Shown one piece after another: positions 38,038-46,589 of a stretch of DNA of 64,000 nucleotides; within the stretch, counting starts at the first letter, position 1; every line of letters starts with the position of its first letter. The translations under genes were made by a program, and so were the position numbers. This DNA comes from Terrimicrobium sacchariphilum (lineage in GTDB: Bacteria > Verrucomicrobiota > Verrucomicrobiia > Chthoniobacterales > Terrimicrobiaceae), in the NCBI RefSeq assembly GCF_001613545.1, contig NZ_BDCO01000003.1, positions 186,001 to 250,000 on the forward strand. Direction: 5' to 3'. The notes beneath the pieces were generated by a model. The model was not told the origin of the DNA, ran no database searches, and worked only from the letters and a program-made list of their open reading frames with translations.

Positions 38038-39339
38038 GTGGATAAACAACGTACGCTCGCATCGTCTGCCAGTCTGAAGGGCACGGCCCTGCACACCGGC
38101 GAGAACGTCACCCTGACGGTCCGTCCCGCTCCGGTCGGACATGGCTTCAAGTTCAAGCGCATCGACCTCCCTGACGAACCCGTGGTCGACGCCAAGGTGG
38201 AGAGCGTCAAAACGGTCGAGCGTGCGACGACCCTCGTCGAGGGCAGCGTCAAGATTCACACGGTCGAGCATGTGATTTCCGCCCTGGCGGGTCTCGGTGT
38301 CGACAATGCGCTCATCGAGATGGACGCCAACGAGCCGCCTATCGGCGACGGCAGCGCTGCCGCTTATGTCGCGCTGATCAAGGAAGCCGGCATCGTCGAG
38401 CAGGACGCGCCGCGTAGCTACTTCACGCCGCGCGAGCCCATCTCGGTGCAGGTAGGCGATTCCATCCTCACCATCCTGCCGGACACGAAATTCCGCGTCT
38501 CCTGTACGCAAGTTGGACCCGAGGGACGCTTTACGCAGTATCTCAGCGCCGAGATCACCCCGGATTTCTACGAAACCGAGATCGCCCCGGCTCGCACCTT
38601 TGTTTTCTACGAGGACGTGAAGCCGCTCATGGACAAGGGGCTCATCCGCGGCGGAAGCCTGGAGAACGCCATCGTCGCCCGTGGAGACAGCGTACTCAGC
38701 AAGGAGCCGCTGCGTTTCCCGGATGAATTCGTCCGTCACAAGATACTCGACATCGTGGGCGACCTCGCGCTCTCCGGACGCAGGCTTCGCGGCCATATCG
38801 TCGCGGTAAAGCCGGGCCACGGCCCGAATACCGAGCTGGCCCGTGCGCTCGTGAAGCGTCACTCCGATTACGTCGCGATGGCTCCCACGCCGATTGCCGC
38901 CGAGGGCGGCGTGCTCGACGTCAACGAGATCATGCGCACCCTACCGCATCGCTATCCCTTCCTCATGGTCGACCGCATCATTGAGCTGGTCGAGGATACC
39001 CGCGCCGTGGGCGTGAAGGCGGTGACGATCAACGAACCGTATTTTCAAGGCCACTTCCCGGGCCATCCGGTCATGCCGGGCGTGCTTCAGGTCGAGGCCA
39101 TGGCCCAGGTCGCGAGCGTCGTGATGATGCGCCGCACGGAGAACATCGGAAAGATCGGCTATTTCATGAGCGCCGACTCCGTGAAGTTCCGCAAGCCAGT
39201 CTTCCCGGGCGACACGCTGTTCATTCACTGCGAGATGCTGAGCGCGAAGAAGCGCCTCGGCAAGGCGGCCTGCCGCTGCGAGGTCAACGGTGAGGTGGTC
39301 TCCGAGGGCGAACTGCTCTTCGGTCTGGTCGATAAATAA
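38038..39339 (+). CDS. lpxC/fabZ: Bifunctional UDP-3-O-acyl-GlcNAc deacetylase / 3-hydroxyacyl-ACP dehydratase (LpxC-FabZ fusion)
   Basis: Joins the committing lipid A deacetylase with a fatty acid dehydratase. Residues of about 1-285 are LpxC, with zinc ligands in HTVEHVISALAGLGVDNA and HKILDIVGDLAL and a downstream His in GHGPNTELA. Residues of about 295-433 are FabZ, with LPHRYPFLMVDRI and the active-site GHFPGHPVMPGVLQVEAMAQ. This fusion is known from Bacteroidetes and some PVC bacteria. The start is GTG 38038 (VDKQRTLASS). lpxA follows after 7 bases. Confidence 0.97.
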   Translation: MDKQRTLASSASLKGTALHTGENVTLTVRPAPVGHGFKFKRIDLPDEPVVDAKVESVKTVERATTLVEGSVKIHTVEHVISALAGLGVDNALIEMDANEPPIGDGSAAAYVALIKEAGIVEQDAPRSYFTPREPISVQVGDSILTILPDTKFRVSCTQVGPEGRFTQYLSAEITPDFYETEIAPARTFVFYEDVKPLMDKGLIRGGSLENAIVARGDSVLSKEPLRFPDEFVRHKILDIVGDLALSGRRLRGHIVAVKPGHGPNTELARALVKRHSDYVAMAPTPIAAEGGVLDVNEIMRTLPHRYPFLMVDRIIELVEDTRAVGVKAVTINEPYFQGHFPGHPVMPGVLQVEAMAQVASVVMMRRTENIGKIGYFMSADSVKFRKPVFPGDTLFIHCEMLSAKKRLGKAACRCEVNGEVVSEGELLFGLVDK

Positions 39340-40202: not shown

Positions 40203-40439
40203 ATGAAATCGTGGCATCGCTTTCTGGCCTGGATGTATCAAAGGCATCTTAACGAAGAACGTCGGAAGCTCGCGCAGTTCGTGCGGGAATCGCAGCGGGA
40301 GATCAGTCAATGGGAGGAGGATCTCGAACAGTTCGAGATTCGCACCCGGCGGCAGGTGGAACTGGCGGGAGTTGAGACCAAGGAGTCCTTGGGTTCCGCT
40401 CTGCCGAATATCATTCCCCTGAGGAAGCACGCTGCGTAG
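40203..40439 (+). CDS. Small hypothetical protein
   Basis: A 78-residue product, highly charged and helical (MYQRHLNEERRKLAQFVRES, then REISQWEEDLEQFEIRTRRQ), likely a short coiled coil. A clear ribosome binding site, GGAGGT, precedes the ATG by 8 bases, which supports translation. It follows lpxA by 82 bases. Function unknown. Confidence 0.65.
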   Translation: MKSWHRFLAWMYQRHLNEERRKLAQFVRESQREISQWEEDLEQFEIRTRRQVELAGVETKESLGSALPNIIPLRKHAA

Positions 40440-40487
40440 CGGATTTCCTCGGCTAAAGCGGTCCGAATCACTCTTCGCCGTGACGGA

Positions 40488-41537
40488 TCAGCGTGGCGGA
40501 GGAGCGGTCGATTCGCGAACGAAAAGCTCGGGAGTCAGCTTGAGCCCGATCGGCGCTGCCTCGGGATCTGCGAAGCGTTGTGCCAGCACTTGTACAGCTC
40601 CCTCTCCCCAGTGGTCGTCGGCTACGCCGACCTCGGTAACGGACGGGACAATTAGCGCGTTGCTGGCCTCCAACCCGAACGAGGCCAGGCTGCAATCCTT
40701 GGGCACGCGAATGTCAGACTCGTGAAATGCCCTTAGCGCCCCGATTACCCCTGCAGAACTGGCGCTGATCAGGGCGGTGAAACCTGGTTTTCCCTTATTC
40801 GCAGAAAGGTACTCTTTCAAGCCCGCATAGGCTCGATGGAGGCTGCTCTCTCCTCGCTCGGTGTGGCAGGGGATGATGACGGGTTTTGGAAGATCGAAGA
40901 GGTCCACGAGGTTCAGGAAAATCTCACTCCTTTGCAGGATCGAGAAAAACGGAGGTTCGTTCTCCAGCAGGGCCAGGTGGCGATGACCCAGGCTTAAAAG
41001 GTGCTTCACCAGCAGACTCATGTACCGGTGATCGTCCCCGGTGACATAGTCGAGTTGGAACGGTCCGGCGGAGCGGCCATAAGCCAGGATCGGGGAGGAT
41101 TGGGAGGTGATCTCTTTGAAGAAGCCGGGATTGGACTCAATGATCGTCGGCATGACCACATGGGCGCAGGTCCTGACATGAGGGCGGATATCCGGATCGT
41201 CGCCGTTCACCGGTTGTCTCTTGATGACCAACTTCCATCCCGCCTGGGAGACGGCCCGATCGAGCGAAATCTCCTTCACGTCCATCGTGGGCGAGGGGTA
41301 TTGCGGGCGATGAAGCTCGATGTAGCGCACGCCCTTCTGGGGATTGATAAAGATGCCGCTGCCTTTTTTGGTCGTGATCAAACCCTCTGCCTCGAGTTGA
41401 CGCAGGGCCTGATTGATGGAATGCAGGCTGGTGTCGTATCGGTTCATCAACGCTCTCACTGAGGGCAACTTTTCTCCTGGTGCCTGAGAAAGGGCTTTAT
41501 GACGGAGTAAATCGGTGACTCGGGAAGAAGCGCTCAT
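40488..41537 (-). CDS. Transcriptional regulator: GntR-type HTH with LacI-type sugar-binding domain
   Basis: A 349-residue protein. Residues of about 5-70 form a GntR winged helix (LPSVRALMNRYDTSLHSINQ, ALRQLEAEGLITTKKGSGIF). Residues of about 110-340 resemble the periplasmic-binding-protein-like ligand domain of LacI/GalR regulators (LSLGHRHLALLENEPP, then ISASSAGVIGALRAFHESD and IRVPKDCSLASFG). It is divergent from the PEP-CTERM gene with an 81-base gap containing a palindrome, so local control is likely. The ligand is probably a sugar or sugar derivative, by analogy. Confidence 0.9.
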   Translation of the reverse strand: MSASSRVTDLLRHKALSQAPGEKLPSVRALMNRYDTSLHSINQALRQLEAEGLITTKKGSGIFINPQKGVRYIELHRPQYPSPTMDVKEISLDRAVSQAGWKLVIKRQPVNGDDPDIRPHVRTCAHVVMPTIIESNPGFFKEITSQSSPILAYGRSAGPFQLDYVTGDDHRYMSLLVKHLLSLGHRHLALLENEPPFFSILQRSEIFLNLVDLFDLPKPVIIPCHTERGESSLHRAYAGLKEYLSANKGKPGFTALISASSAGVIGALRAFHESDIRVPKDCSLASFGLEASNALIVPSVTEVGVADDHWGEGAVQVLAQRFADPEAAPIGLKLTPELFVRESTAPPPR

Positions 41538-41560
41538 TCTGAGAATATCGATACACTTTG

Positions 41561-41582
41561 TATTGAAAAACGCAATTCAATA
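41561..41582. promoter_or_regulatory. Candidate operator palindrome between the GntR/LacI hybrid and the PEP-CTERM gene
   Basis: TATTGAA (41561-41567) and TTCAATA (41576-41582) are exact inverted repeats with an 8-base spacer, AAACGCAA. It lies 24 bases upstream of the regulator start and 37 bases upstream of the PEP-CTERM start, in AT-rich DNA. This is the expected place for the regulator's binding site. Confidence 0.5.
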
Positions 41583-41618
41583 TTGATTACACTGATTGGC
41601 GTTCTTAGGTTCCCGTTC

Positions 41619-42491
41619 ATGAAAAGAGCGATTTCTTCTTTCATTGTTCTCCCTCTCGTTTTGATCGGTTTCGGTTCACTGCAGGGGGCGACTTTACTTG
41701 ATGACGCGGTGGCCTACTGGAATTTCGAAGGAAACCTGGACGGGACTCACGCTATCAATCTCGCGGATGTTTCCGGAACCACGACCGCGATGACTCCGAC
41801 CATCGTTCCCACGTTTAATCCGGTATCCGGGATCAAGGCGGTGAATGCCGGAACCCAGGCGGTGGCATTTGACGGAACCAATGTCCTGAAGTCCAACGCT
41901 GCCAGCCTGAGAATCAGTGGAGCTCAAACGCTCTGGCTGCGGGTGAATCTTGGGAGCATTCCGGCCGGGACGGTGGCATTTATGACGCGGAGTCGGCCGG
42001 TTAACACCCAGCGCGGGATCTCCCTGCAAATGACGAACGGGCGTCTGCAGGGGTATTTGTCTGCAGACGGGACGACCTACAACACTCAACTGACGAATGC
42101 TTCGTCGTACGCGCTGCAAGCGTCATCATGGTACGATATCTCCATGCGATTCGATCCCTCGAACGTTCTGCGCATCGATCTTTACGATCCCATGACGGGG
42201 ACCCTGCTGGATTCGATGGAAACAACCGCGAATGTTCCGGCTTCCATCAGCGCCTCCAATAGCATCGGATCGGGTTATTTCCAGGTCGGATCGATCAACA
42301 ATGGTGGCGCAGGCAGTTCCTATCTCGTTCCCAATGGCACGTTGATCGAGTCCGCTGCGGTATGGAACAGCTATCTTTCCGATGACCAGATTCGGACTCT
42401 TTCCGCAGTGCCAGAACCTCGCAGCATCAGCATGCTGATGATGGGAGGCGCTTCGCTTGCCATGTTTCTTCGCTGGTCGCGCAGCCACTGA
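41619..42491 (+). CDS. Secreted LamG-like protein with PEP-CTERM sorting signal
   Basis: A 290-residue protein with a signal peptide (MKRAISSFIVLPLVLIGFGS, cleavage near LQGA). The body from DDAVAYWNFEGNLDG to AAVWNSYLSDDQIRTLS resembles concanavalin-like LamG domains that bind carbohydrate. It ends in a PEP-CTERM tail: VPEPRSISMLMMGGASLAMF, then LRWSRSH. Such proteins are cut by an exosortase and released or anchored outside the cell. The start is ATG 41619. It is the first gene of a rightward group facing the regulator. Confidence 0.88.
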   Translation: MKRAISSFIVLPLVLIGFGSLQGATLLDDAVAYWNFEGNLDGTHAINLADVSGTTTAMTPTIVPTFNPVSGIKAVNAGTQAVAFDGTNVLKSNAASLRISGAQTLWLRVNLGSIPAGTVAFMTRSRPVNTQRGISLQMTNGRLQGYLSADGTTYNTQLTNASSYALQASSWYDISMRFDPSNVLRIDLYDPMTGTLLDSMETTANVPASISASNSIGSGYFQVGSINNGGAGSSYLVPNGTLIESAAVWNSYLSDDQIRTLSAVPEPRSISMLMMGGASLAMFLRWSRSH

Positions 42492-42529
42492 ATATTATCG
42501 AAAGACGAAGCGTACCGAGGAAGACCATC

Positions 42530-44425
42530 GTGAAAATTCCCCCTCCGATCACAGGACTGCTGGTGTGGTTCTGTGGATGCTGCCTGCCTTTGGCGGCGCA
42601 TGCAGATGTCTATTACGTAGATGGGAAAACGGGGAGGGATTCCGCTGATGGCCGTGCTCCGGATGGGGAGCACGCCCTGGCCACGATCCAGGAGGCCGCC
42701 CGCCGCGCCAGCCCAGGGGATGTCATCACGGTGGCTGAGGGGATTTATGAGGGCCCCATCGACCTCCATATTGCCGGGGAGCCCGGCCGCCCGATCACGA
42801 TCCAGGCGGCAAGCCGCAAGAAGAACGCCGTGGTCATCACCAACGCGGAGCCGACCCTCCGAAAGGGCGCTACGCCCTGGACGCTGGTCGATGAGAGTCT
42901 GGGGCTCTATCGCGCTCCGCTGGCGCGTCCCACCTGTCGTATTCTCTATTCCGGCGTGGATATTCAGCCGTACGCTTCCCTGGATGCGCTCAAGACTTTT
43001 GTCGGTCTGGATGGGAATCCCGGTCCGCGGCATGGCTACTACTACGACGAGAAGGCGCAAATGCTCTATGTCCGGCTGCATGCCTCGGGCAAATATGGTT
43101 CGCCGAATCCTGCAGATCACCTGATCTCTGCGGGGCCGAGGACGGGCGGAGGCTCGGCGGGGAACAACTACGACGGCCCGCTTTTTTTCAATCTCGGCCT
43201 GCGCGGTAACAAACCGCTGCATGTCATCGTCGACGGATTCACCTTTGAGACGCCGGGATACGCCGGAGTGTATGTTGATGGCAGCGATGTGGTCGTGCGC
43301 AACTCGTGGTTCCTCGGCTGCCGCGCGGGTGTTTCCGGCCGGCGCGAGTCTGCCGATCCCTCTGTGACCTCCAATCGCGTCACTGTGGAGTTCTGTGACT
43401 ATAGTCAATACCCGGCCTTTGATGACATGATCGAACTGCTGGAACTTCGGAAGGCAGGGCGTCTTTCCGTGGCTCCGAGCAAGTTTCCTCTTTTCTGGTG
43501 GTCGCGCAAGGGCAACGGTGCAGGCAACAACAAGACCTACGAGACCGGGATATGCAATCTGGTAGGGTCCGACTGGATCGTTCGTAATAACGACATCCAT
43601 GATGCGTTTGAAGGCCTTTCCACCTGGGCCCTTCGGTGGAGCAAGGGGCTGGTGGTGGCGCACAACCGGTTGGAGAGGTTGGTGGACAATGCGGTCGAGA
43701 GCGAGGATCATACCTTTGGCATGAAGATTTACGGGAACTTCATCCGTAATGTCGTCGAGCCCTTTTCCTGGCAGCCGCTAGGTGGCGAACCCTGGCCGGG
43801 ATCGGTCTATATCTATGACAATGTGGTTCAGAGCGACCTTGCTCTCAATCAACTCATCACCGTAGTCAGCGACTGGACTCCCGGATGGTTCAAGGCCGGG
43901 GCGAGCAGCCAGAATTGGGAGGCTTCCTGGAACACCCATATGAAAGACGTTCCCCGGGATGTCGTGCGGGCGCCCGGTGATGGAGTGGTCGTCTTTAACA
44001 ACACGGTTTTCTTCCCGGGCGGGGAGTTTCTGACCCGGGTGCAGCCGCCGGAGCGGAAGTTTGAGAATTTTCGATTCGTCAACAACGTGAGCGTCGCGGC
44101 GGGATTTTCGCGCCAGCAGGAGGATATCGGCAGCGGTATTACCTTTTCTCATAATGCCTGGGCTTATGCCCCGGCAGGAAGCGACCGGGGGCAGGTCTTT
44201 GCAGGCGTCGAGGGCACCGTCTTTCCGGAATCCAGCGATGCATGGATAGCCGACATGTCGAAGAGTTTGGACGAGATCCTGGAGGGCGCGCCCTGGAAGG
44301 ATCTGCCGGGTGCGGGGGTGCCCTCCGCTGCCGCAGCCTTTGCGGGCGCACCGGAGATCCGCACGGTGGGTGCCGGATTGAATGGCCGGCCGTGGAAGAT
44401 GCCGGACACGGGACCTCGCGAGTAA
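42530..44425 (+). CDS. Secreted right-handed beta-helix protein (possible polysaccharide lyase/hydrolase)
   Basis: A 631-residue protein with a signal peptide (MKIPPPITGLLVWFCGCCLP, then LAAHA). It opens with YYVDGKTGRDSADGRAPD and ATIQEAARRASPGDVITVAE, the usual start of right-handed beta-helix proteins of the pectate lyase / chondroitinase B superfamily. Later come repeating rungs (VDGFTFETPGYAGVYVDGSD; DWIVRNNDIHDAFEGLSTWA). No catalytic residues could be fixed by eye, so the substrate is open. The start is GTG 42530, 38 bases after the PEP-CTERM gene. Confidence 0.87.
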   Translation: MKIPPPITGLLVWFCGCCLPLAAHADVYYVDGKTGRDSADGRAPDGEHALATIQEAARRASPGDVITVAEGIYEGPIDLHIAGEPGRPITIQAASRKKNAVVITNAEPTLRKGATPWTLVDESLGLYRAPLARPTCRILYSGVDIQPYASLDALKTFVGLDGNPGPRHGYYYDEKAQMLYVRLHASGKYGSPNPADHLISAGPRTGGGSAGNNYDGPLFFNLGLRGNKPLHVIVDGFTFETPGYAGVYVDGSDVVVRNSWFLGCRAGVSGRRESADPSVTSNRVTVEFCDYSQYPAFDDMIELLELRKAGRLSVAPSKFPLFWWSRKGNGAGNNKTYETGICNLVGSDWIVRNNDIHDAFEGLSTWALRWSKGLVVAHNRLERLVDNAVESEDHTFGMKIYGNFIRNVVEPFSWQPLGGEPWPGSVYIYDNVVQSDLALNQLITVVSDWTPGWFKAGASSQNWEASWNTHMKDVPRDVVRAPGDGVVVFNNTVFFPGGEFLTRVQPPERKFENFRFVNNVSVAAGFSRQQEDIGSGITFSHNAWAYAPAGSDRGQVFAGVEGTVFPESSDAWIADMSKSLDEILEGAPWKDLPGAGVPSAAAAFAGAPEIRTVGAGLNGRPWKMPDTGPRE

Positions 44426-44445
44426 CCTCAGCACATCATTCCCCC

Positions 44446-45156
44446 ATGAAATATCGTCGCGTTCATTCGGCAGCCTGGAGTCTCGTCGAGCTCCTCGTCG
44501 CCATTGGTATCATCGGCATACTGGCCTCGCTTGCCCTGCCTGCCTGGAGCGGCGTTCGGGCCAATGCCGATCAAGCACAGTGCGCCTCCCGTTTGAGAAA
44601 TCTCGCCTCGGCCAGCCTCAGCTGGATCAATGATCATGGCGGGGCGATGCCGGATGCGATGTATTGGCGATTCCCTAGTGAGAATCACGATGGCTCCATC
44701 CTGCCCTACCTGGGCTATAGGGACACGATGCTAAACCAGAAAGGACCCACTGCGCTGAGTTGTCCCGCTTCCCTTCGCGCGGTCGGTCCGAATGCAGATT
44801 GGAACCGGAGCTATTCCATCAACATCTACGCCTGCGGCACCGAGAACGGTCAGCGTTACAGTCCATTCGACCGGGGTGTCGCCCGCATCCAGCAGGTCGC
44901 CAGTCCGGCAAAGATGGCGTTTTTCATGGACGGCAACTTCCTGGCTGGCGGAGCCCCGGAGCGTAAGGTTGGTCCCGCCAGCGTGGAGAACGTGTGGGAT
45001 AAACAGCAAAAAACCGGCTTTTACGATCAGCATACAGGCAATGGGGCCAATGTGGTCTTCCTCGACGGCCATCTGGGACTCATTTCCCGGACCAATCTGC
45101 CGAAGGGAACCCCTACCGAACAGAGGCTGAATCCCTTTTGGGGCGCCATCCAATAG
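44446..45156 (+). CDS. Pseudopilin-like protein (prepilin N-terminus, H-x-DG type)
   Basis: A 236-residue protein with a type IV prepilin-like N-terminus: AWSLVELLVAIGIIGILASL, with the conserved glutamate five residues into the hydrophobic stretch. The usual Gly-Phe cleavage site is here Ala-Ala-Trp-Ser, which is unusual. Near the end it has HTGNGANVVFLDGHLG, close to the H-x9-DG motif of processing-associated pseudopilins in PVC bacteria, with one extra spacer residue. Such proteins are abundant in this group and of unknown function. The start is ATG 44446, 20 bases after the beta-helix gene. Confidence 0.85.
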   Translation: MKYRRVHSAAWSLVELLVAIGIIGILASLALPAWSGVRANADQAQCASRLRNLASASLSWINDHGGAMPDAMYWRFPSENHDGSILPYLGYRDTMLNQKGPTALSCPASLRAVGPNADWNRSYSINIYACGTENGQRYSPFDRGVARIQQVASPAKMAFFMDGNFLAGGAPERKVGPASVENVWDKQQKTGFYDQHTGNGANVVFLDGHLGLISRTNLPKGTPTEQRLNPFWGAIQ

Positions 45157-45266
45157 ACATCCGGGCTGCATTCAACAACCGAACCCATGAAAACCTGAGA
45201 GCTTTCTTTCTTCTGAATTTTCAACTGCACGATGTTCTCCCCCGGGACGCAGGCATTTCACATAAA

Positions 45267-46538
45267 ATGAAATTGGTAGATGTGGTTTTGGTAGGTATCG
45301 GGGGTTATGGCGCCAGATATGTCAGGGCGCTGGATGATTTGCCCGAAGCCAGGCTTGTAGCGGTCGTCGACCCAATGGCGGAATCCACCGAGCACTGGAA
45401 CACAATCCAGGAAAGAGGAGTTAGGCAATACAGGAGCCTTGGCGATTTTCTTGCCGCCGGAGGGCGGGCCGACCTGGCTGTGATCTCGTCGCCGATTGGC
45501 TTTCATCAGGAGCAGTCCTGTCTCGCCTTGCGGGCGGGAATGAATGTGCTTTGCGAAAAGCCGATCAGTGCCACGATGGAGGAGGCTCTACGCATGATCG
45601 AGGCGAGGGACGCTGCCGGACGTTTTCTCGAGATTGGCTACCAGTGGTCCTTCAGTCGAGCCATCCGGCAACTCAAGGAGGACATCCTGGCCGGAATATT
45701 TGGCGACTCATTGCTCTTCAAGACTCTGGTCGCCTGGCCGCGGGGCAGCGCGTACTATGGGCGCAATGACTGGAGTGGTCGGATAACGAATGATGAGGGC
45801 AGGCCAGTCTACGACAGCCCGGTAAATAACGCCACGGCCCATTATCTCCACAATATGCTGTTCCTTGGTGGTCGCAGTATGGAGAGCGCTGCGCATCCTA
45901 TTTTCATTGAGGCTGAGTGCTACCGTGGTAATGAGATCGAAAACTTTGATACAGCATGCTGCCGGATCACTACGGACGAAGTTCCTGAGATCTTGTTTTT
46001 AACCTCGCATTGCGTGGAGCGAAATTTTGGCCCGATTTTTGAGTTGAGATTCGAGCGGGGTACGATTCGCTATCCGGTCGGCGGCTCCATCGAGGCTATC
46101 CTCGAGACGGGGCGGCATGTGAACTACGGTGATCCTGAGGCTGATCCCATGGGGAAGCTCCGCTTGTGCCTGGAGCGATGCCGATGTTCTCAACAGCAAC
46201 CCGCCTTCTGTGGCCCGGAGGCCGCCGCCTCTCTGACGGCATGTGTCGAGGGCATTCAGCGTATGCCTGTGCATCGTTTTCCAGCAAACGACTTGGCTCG
46301 TCGTCCGCTTCATTCTGACGATGACGTACTGGTGTACCTTCCGGGACTGGTCGAAACATTTCAGGATGCATTTGAAGTGGAGCGCCTTCCCTCGGAATTC
46401 GGGGTTCCATGGACCAGTCCTGCGGGGAGTGTTGATCTGACATCTGGTTTCGGCCGACAGCGTCGGGGCGAAACAGCATTAAAGTCGCATACCAAGAGGG
46501 ATGTCATGCTCTCGACGTCGATCGGAGAGGATCGTTAA
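45267..46538 (+). CDS. Gfo/Idh/MocA-family NAD(P)-dependent oxidoreductase
   Basis: A 423-residue enzyme with an N-terminal Rossmann fold (VVLVGIGGYGARYVRALDDL), ISSPIGFHQEQSCLALRAGM and the family CEKPIS (lysine-proline) motif. A C-terminal alpha/beta substrate domain follows. Members oxidise or reduce sugars, inositols and sugar derivatives. The start is ATG 45267, 110 bases after the pseudopilin gene. Placed last in the group opposite the GntR/LacI regulator, it may act on the sugar freed by the beta-helix protein. The substrate is not known. Confidence 0.9.
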   Translation: MKLVDVVLVGIGGYGARYVRALDDLPEARLVAVVDPMAESTEHWNTIQERGVRQYRSLGDFLAAGGRADLAVISSPIGFHQEQSCLALRAGMNVLCEKPISATMEEALRMIEARDAAGRFLEIGYQWSFSRAIRQLKEDILAGIFGDSLLFKTLVAWPRGSAYYGRNDWSGRITNDEGRPVYDSPVNNATAHYLHNMLFLGGRSMESAAHPIFIEAECYRGNEIENFDTACCRITTDEVPEILFLTSHCVERNFGPIFELRFERGTIRYPVGGSIEAILETGRHVNYGDPEADPMGKLRLCLERCRCSQQQPAFCGPEAAASLTACVEGIQRMPVHRFPANDLARRPLHSDDDVLVYLPGLVETFQDAFEVERLPSEFGVPWTSPAGSVDLTSGFGRQRRGETALKSHTKRDVMLSTSIGEDR

Positions 46539-46589
46539 CACCCGCCCTCTACTGCGGAAGTGAGAGACCCTGCGGGTTGCGCTTGCCCG

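Follow-up and report, generated by a model that had tools for sequence, protein, structure and literature searches.

Members of the Verrucomicrobiota break down many complex glycans, and the question of how they hold and import these without SusCD systems is raised by a five-gene locus of Terrimicrobium sacchariphilum, a soil bacterium with a genome of 4,751,807 bases on three contigs. The locus (positions 40488–46538) lies in the window analyzed here, a stretch of 64,000 nucleotides (nt) from contig NZ_BDCO01000003.1 (positions 186,001–250,000). An earlier note on this DNA had described it as one unit consisting of a hybrid GntR/LacI regulator, a PEP-CTERM LamG protein, a beta-helix protein, a pseudopilin and an oxidoreductase, and proposed a small surface system for polysaccharide capture unlike SusCD systems. 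We consider it reasonably probable that the locus is a small, locally regulated, SusCD-free glycan-use operon that resembles a polysaccharide utilization locus (PUL) and is assembled from a kit of parts reused in the genome. The unit, its operator and its recurrence can be read from the sequence.

The five genes are located at the positions given by the earlier note, with the regulator diverging from a run of four rightward genes. A divergent promoter region of 81 nt separates the regulator from the gene for the LamG-like protein, and the gaps within the run are 38, 20 and 110 nt; no terminator-like sites were seen in these three intergenic gaps. The DNA of the locus is collinear, at approximately 89% identity, in the two further genomes of the genus that the search set contained (three of three including T. 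sacchariphilum), and all five reading frames are open in the three genomes. The ratios of nonsynonymous to synonymous substitution (dN/dS) are 0.04–0.15 for the five genes of the set (the rows for lpxA, a 78-amino acid (aa) open reading frame (ORF) and yqgE, affected by incorrect frames or by starts that overlap, were left out), values that point to purifying selection on all five. As the flanks are collinear too, collinearity is on its own weak evidence for an operon; conservation of the promoter provides the stronger evidence for a single unit.

The promoter region contains a run of 47 nt (41543–41589) that is identical in the three species and forms the longest three-way invariant run within positions 40450–46580. 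Across the two genes flanking the promoter, four-fold sites are invariant in 196 of 356 cases. Runs of 40–44 nt are also found in coding sequence, and the geometric probability of the 47-nt run therefore does not serve as a test. Inside the run lies the operator candidate ATACACTTTGTAT (ATACA-CTT-TGTAT, 41551–41563), overlapped by a second inverted repeat, TATTGAA-N8-TTCAATA (41561–41567 and 41576–41582), that was read from the sequence and is likewise invariant in the three species. The palindrome reported earlier for the shared promoter is thus real. A scan for sigma-70 promoters was uninformative (2 found vs. 3.0 expected).

The core motif ACACTTTGT was first seen beside relatives of the regulator, at loci chosen by way of the regulator and not of the motif. 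A search with WACACTTTGTW in five genomes (T. sacchariphilum, the sister species G001 and G002, G005 from another genus of the same family, and G094 from another order of the same class) yielded 15 places. These raw counts are not enriched, since the backwards control pattern is similarly frequent (2, 6, 2, 5, and 8 occurrences in the five genomes), and it is the position of the motif that is informative. Seven of the 15 places adjoin the regulator subfamily (at the window, at the paralogue R28, in G001, in G002, twice in G005 and in G094), and the remaining eight are all within open frames of at least 80 codons, stop to stop, one of them (L122) near the end of its frame. The sister genomes G001 and G002 each have a single occurrence, at the counterpart of the window promoter. 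The three occurrences in T. sacchariphilum itself are at the window promoter, upstream of the operon adjacent to R28, and inside open frames at C2:590262. G005 has three, two of which are found around the operon of its related regulator, and G094 has seven, one lying between a PEP-CTERM gene and a divergent run of enzyme genes. The counterpart of R28 in G001 (L115 8081, G001:C6) carries the variant ATACAGTTTGTAT at the same place, upstream of its operon, which suggests a small subfamily of regulators with a common operator and a drifting center. The pattern ATACA-N3-TGTAT occurs three times in the 767,530 bases examined: at the window promoter, at R28, and at C2:1270721, where it falls within a gene called in a different kit. 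Taken together, the comparison strongly supports ATACA-CTT-TGTAT as the predicted operator of the regulator, and a locally acting, autoregulated operon is a well supported reading of the locus. The reading of the genes as a single unit behind a shared, regulated promoter is supported.

The regulator (41537–40488, minus strand, 349 aa) was confirmed as a GntR/LacI hybrid, with a GntR domain (PF00392, 53.7 bits; cut-off 27) and a LacI-type sugar-binding domain (PF13377, Peripla_BP_3, 65.6 bits; cut-off 26.5) both above the Pfam cut-offs. It is 93–94% identical in G001 and G002, and its relatives in G005 and G094 are 47 and 42% identical, respectively; the paralogue R28 of its own genome is 31% identical. 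The protein is rare, with a match at E ≤ 1e-50 in 2 of the 387 sampled genomes of the phylum, one of which is its own genome. In combining a GntR DNA-binding domain with a LacI-type sugar-binding domain and a short, predicted palindromic operator, it resembles the AraR-type hybrids, although their operator consensus differs from ATACA-CTT-TGTAT. At the level of sequence, a candidate palindromic operator is present at the regulator's own promoter and at that of the target operon, as expected for hybrids of the AraR type.

Is the set reused, or have common surface genes come together by coincidence? The genome contains 91 PEP-CTERM motifs, 102 prepilin motifs, 47 LacI-type sensor domains and 32 Gfo/Idh/MocA domains (E ≤ 0.001), and PEP-CTERM, pilin and sugar-regulator genes co-cluster on G000:C2, mainly at approximately 0.2–1.7 Mb and 2.9–3.6 Mb. 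Any linkage test therefore needs a local-shift control, for which the regulators were displaced by 20–150 kb in 5000 trials. A prepilin motif is found within 5 kb of 21 of the 47 regulators, where 10.4 are expected, and none of the 5000 shifts reached this number. The abundance of both surface motifs and their clustering in shared genomic regions are what a chance neighborhood would predict. We nevertheless regard coincidence as highly improbable and rejected it, given the excess of regulators near pilins over local shifts, the gene order and operator conserved in three species, and the comparable partners that accompany the orthologous regulators of two further genera.

The earlier note had proposed counting similar modules genome-wide. 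Among 45 regulators placed by simple gene calls, a PEP-CTERM gene is present in the own or divergent run of 18, a pilin gene in that of 16, and both in that of 11; R25 and R29 also carry pilins by NCBIfam, which brings the number with both to 13. Later counts omit four of the 47 matches to regulators, namely R20 and R40 (no called gene) and R13 and R45 (no single-locus reference), and Pfam assigned LacI DNA-binding domains to 22 and GntR DNA-binding domains to 18 of the remaining 43. Twenty large kit proteins, hand-picked and not a random sample (17 from T. sacchariphilum and 3 from G005 and G094), comprise nine with matches to glycoside hydrolase families (GH5, GH38, GH39, GH42, GH71, GHL6 and similar, some sub-threshold), four beta-helix proteins, one sulfatase, one BNR protein, one SSF sodium symporter, and four proteins with no useful assignment. 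The kit of R06 equals that of the window in composition, with PEP-CTERM, beta-helix, one more gene, pilin and Gfo/Idh/MocA. The notion of a unique system was rejected in view of this recurrence. The orthologous regulator of G005 is accompanied by PEP-CTERM, GH39-like and pilin genes, and that of G094 by PEP-CTERM, sulfatase, GH39-like and pilin genes; the regulator and surface parts therefore persist while the enzyme cargo changes. When the 575 genes called around the regulators were compared by phmmer, two products of the set (P0002 and P0003) gave no match at E ≤ 1e-3, and are therefore not shared among kits by descent that is visible to phmmer.

The LamG-like protein (41619–42491, plus strand, 290 aa) has a start that resembles a signal peptide by inspection of the sequence. 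Its identification as a LamG protein is provisional, as it is based on a sub-threshold match to PF22237 (26.1 bits; cut-off 27) together with inspection of the sequence, and the structure model (predicted local distance difference test, pLDDT, of 40) is too poor to support a fold comparison. The C-terminus VPEPRSISMLMMGGASLAM has the VPEP motif, hydrophobic stretch and basic end of PEP-CTERM proteins, and is kept in the three species; the scores are below the curated cut-offs (PF07589, 16.8 vs. 20.7 bits; TIGR02595, 14.6 vs. 16). In a profile comparison with the LamG/PEP-CTERM protein of another kit, a match was obtained at the C-terminal end only. The earlier note had named the lack of an exosortase as a finding that would count against it; the genome encodes one, a single EpsH match (PF09721, 153 bits; TIGR02602, 128.4 vs. 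a cut-off of 105.55), with an EpsI-like gene (40.1 bits, cut-off 42.8) and, by inspection, glycosyltransferase-like genes as neighbors. A VPEP-hydrophobic-basic end on a secreted protein and one exosortase in the genome agree with PEP-CTERM/exosortase (EpsH) sorting as described earlier (PMC1569441), from which our case differs by its sub-cut-off motif and by its location in a catabolic-looking locus instead of an exopolysaccharide cluster.

The second gene of the run (42530–44425, plus strand, GTG start) encodes a predicted secreted right-handed beta-helix protein of 631 aa, a putative polysaccharide lyase or glycosidase, which likewise starts with a signal-peptide-like stretch by inspection. 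It scores 24.4 bits against PF13229 (cut-off 25.9), and the AlphaFold model is a right-handed parallel beta-helix (mean pLDDT 65.8, predicted template modeling score 0.77). With VIA-align, the closest fold is that of alginate lyase 6kfn (Z 21.8, 267 residues aligned, 2.5 Å), and the Vibrio lyase RbmB scores Z 21.3; alginate epimerases and lyases of polysaccharide lyase family 6 (PL6) are next, followed by polygalacturonases. Foldseek ranks the GH120 xylosidase XylC first (E 4.6e-8, TM 0.40). Adhesins and tailspikes are within a few Z units of the top folds, and the fold does not therefore name an activity. Two candidate memberships go no further than the fold: GH120, for which the profile match spans only profile positions 19–96, and PL6/chondroitinase B, for which the fold is shared (Z 19.1 to 7o7a) but the family score is 11.9 vs. 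a cut-off of 24 (PF14592). The carbohydrate-acting fold named in the earlier note is thus retained as a fold, without enzyme family membership. Close homologues are found only in the genus, and homologues of 36–43% identity in G039 and in a metagenome-assembled genome of the Planctomycetota. Residues D298, D299, E302, R326, K327, E338, H357, D358, D386, E390, E392, and H394 are invariant, and DNAVExExH followed by a basic residue, considered with regard to the catalytic Lys/Arg and calcium site of PL6/chondroitinase B, is invariant in all five homologues at the sequence level. These acidic, histidine and basic positions are putative active-site residues.

These surface proteins could also serve a different end, in which the LamG/PEP-CTERM protein, the beta-helix protein and the pseudopilin would assemble or trim an exopolysaccharide matrix or adhesin layer belonging to the cell itself, with the oxidoreductase supplying a sugar precursor and the regulator sensing an intracellular sugar instead of food. 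Gfo/Idh/MocA enzymes also act in nucleotide-sugar synthesis, the beta-helix homologue of G039 adjoins nucleotide-sugar-like genes by inspection, the single exosortase has the neighbors listed above, and RbmB, a lyase of matrix polysaccharide, is among the closest folds. The locus itself, however, contains no synthesis gene, the sister kits hold catabolic-type enzymes and an SSF symporter, and control by a LacI/GntR hybrid is typical of sugar catabolism. PEP-CTERM systems do accompany exopolysaccharide genes (PMC1569441), but on balance we consider such remodeling unlikely.

The third gene of the run (44446–45156, plus strand) encodes a pseudopilin-like protein of 236 aa with a degenerate H-X9-DG-type end. 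Its prepilin motif is conserved in the genus and remains below the cut-offs (PF07963, 16.1 vs. 21.2 bits; TIGR02532, 15.0 vs. 16.3). It has phmmer relatives among the pilins of other kits (best E 9.5e-16), several of which do pass the cut-offs. The H-X9-DG motif (TIGR04294) gave no match at E ≤ 1, and an H-X10-DG spacing is present by inspection; families of the Verru_Chthon TIGR02596/TIGR02599 type did not match the protein at E ≤ 1 either. Elsewhere in the genome, at G000:C3:328940-334530 and G000:C1:51625-57214, three pilin-like genes (157, 303, and 204 aa in both) are found together with a gene for a 1160-aa protein. Both cassettes adjoin a LacI-type regulator and resemble Verru_Chthon cassettes, a name taken from weak NCBIfam matches on other pilins.

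The last gene (45267–46538, plus strand, 423 aa) encodes a member of the Gfo/Idh/MocA oxidoreductases (Rossmann domain PF01408, 69.1 bits vs. a cut-off of 24) that has no signal peptide by inspection and is presumably cytoplasmic. The 110-nt gap before it leaves room for a separate promoter, and an operon limited to the regulator, LamG and beta-helix genes, perhaps with the pilin, would leave the oxidoreductase with its own promoter and an unrelated role. The gap is the longest of the run and shows indels, with 65–67% identity, and the gene is the fastest-changing of the set (78–81% identical at the protein level in the sister species) with the weakest codon score. Yet it is collinear in all three genomes of the genus, no terminator-like site is present in the gap, and the kit of R06 likewise ends with pilin and Gfo/Idh/MocA. 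We therefore give this arrangement a small chance; separate transcription of the oxidoreductase would in any case be compatible with a glycan-use operon. In G002, locus L113 (G002:C9:306000-325000) has a regulator-like gene, a gene for a 297-aa protein and a pilin, followed by a Gfo/Idh/MocA gene whose product is 46% identical to that of the window and which is set apart by an integrase-like gene (by inspection); it is possibly a disrupted sister kit.

The closest experimental support for a glycan-use operon, by analogy, comes from Verruconatronum alginivorum, where the operon pgaptmp_000046-60, a polysaccharide-lyase operon upregulated on alginate, includes a pulG-like pseudopilin, and the genome has 67 homologues of the latter (PMC13274419). 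Both species belong to the Verrucomicrobiota, and the two loci are alike in joining extracellular carbohydrate-active enzymes and a pseudopilin, there in one induced cluster and with many pseudopilin copies; they differ in that the alginate operon has polysaccharide lyases and a uronate symporter, and that neither a PEP-CTERM protein nor a GntR/LacI regulator is mentioned for that cluster in the available text. In the mucin utilization locus MUL2 of the Akkermansiaceae, genes for a PilM-like protein and for a pilin-like protein of the archaeal type are found in conserved synteny (PMC13174399). MUL1 and MUL2 share with our locus the phylum and pilus-like proteins tied to glycan attachment or uptake, and MUL2 suggests by analogy that pilus-like parts may serve glycan capture in the phylum; our locus differs by an H-X9-DG-type pseudopilin whose enzyme partner varies and which is controlled by a dedicated regulator. 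Compared with the SusCD PULs of Bacteroidota, the likeness is in locally regulated surface proteins combined with carbohydrate-active enzymes, presumably one set per glycan, and the difference in the GntR/LacI hybrid and in the PEP-CTERM protein and pseudopilin as surface parts. There is no SusC/SusD-like gene among the five genes of the locus, which is not a SusCD locus. The contrast with SusCD drawn earlier is right for the locus, but a verrucomicrobial polysaccharide-lyase operon with a pseudopilin has already been published (PMC13274419). The gene families, too, are already known. The open-access literature searched yielded no case of a dedicated GntR/LacI operator combined with a PEP-CTERM protein, a pseudopilin and interchangeable enzymes.

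For the glycan-use operon, we infer a mechanism that covers repression and its release by sugar, the ligand, secretion, the enzyme activity, the glycan target and the role of the pseudopilin. In the absence of its sugar ligand, a dimer of the regulator on ATACACTTTGTAT would repress its own gene and the four-gene run, and a sugar freed from the target glycan would lift this repression (sign and ligand being part of the model). The LamG-like protein might then be secreted and tethered or released via the exosortase route, while the secreted beta-helix enzyme would cut the glycan. The pseudopilin could join a type II secretion or type IV pilus-like machine, and assist in enzyme export or in keeping the substrate at the cell surface; the cytoplasmic oxidoreductase would process the imported sugar. 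Across kits, the regulator, PEP-CTERM protein and pseudopilin would stay as a kind, and the enzyme would vary with the substrate.

Several points weigh against this account. The locus contains no transporter, the PEP-CTERM and prepilin motifs are both sub-threshold, and the beta-helix protein reaches no enzyme family, is below the cut-off for Pfam Beta_helix, and has a fold shared with non-enzymes. Its homologue in G039, a longer protein, has no similarly arranged regulator, pilin or PEP-CTERM partner. Regulators do not lie near PEP-CTERM motifs significantly more often than under local shifts (16 of 47 regulators, with 12.3 expected; p = 0.19), a null result that reflects the clustering of both in shared genomic regions, and the regulator-PEP-CTERM pairing is therefore less secure than the regulator-pilin pairing. 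Finally, the V. alginivorum proteome consists of one replicate per treatment (PMC13274419). The interpretation of the earlier note is thus upheld in part, for one regulated unit, an exosortase and recurrence.

As a wider and more doubtful proposal, the regulator, PEP-CTERM protein and pseudopilin might constitute an exchangeable set for glycan capture, independent of SusCD, that serves Terrimicrobium as well as other Verrucomicrobiota. Each kit would be matched to one glycan by a regulator and operator of its own and would swap only its enzyme cargo, and the pseudopilin would physically display or pull in the substrate. Glycan capture without SusCD becomes testable through a predicted operator with one or two targets in each genome and through the dozen or so parallel kits of a cultivated species, as each pair of regulator and kit predicts which genes rise on which glycan. 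The kits could also be used to test if the numerous PEP-CTERM and pseudopilin genes are capture parts for individual substrates.

Beyond the regulator, the window contains a single ORF at 38038–39339 that by eye resembles an LpxC-FabZ fusion, followed by an LpxA-like gene; the 78-aa ORF (40203–40439) lies between the latter and the regulator.

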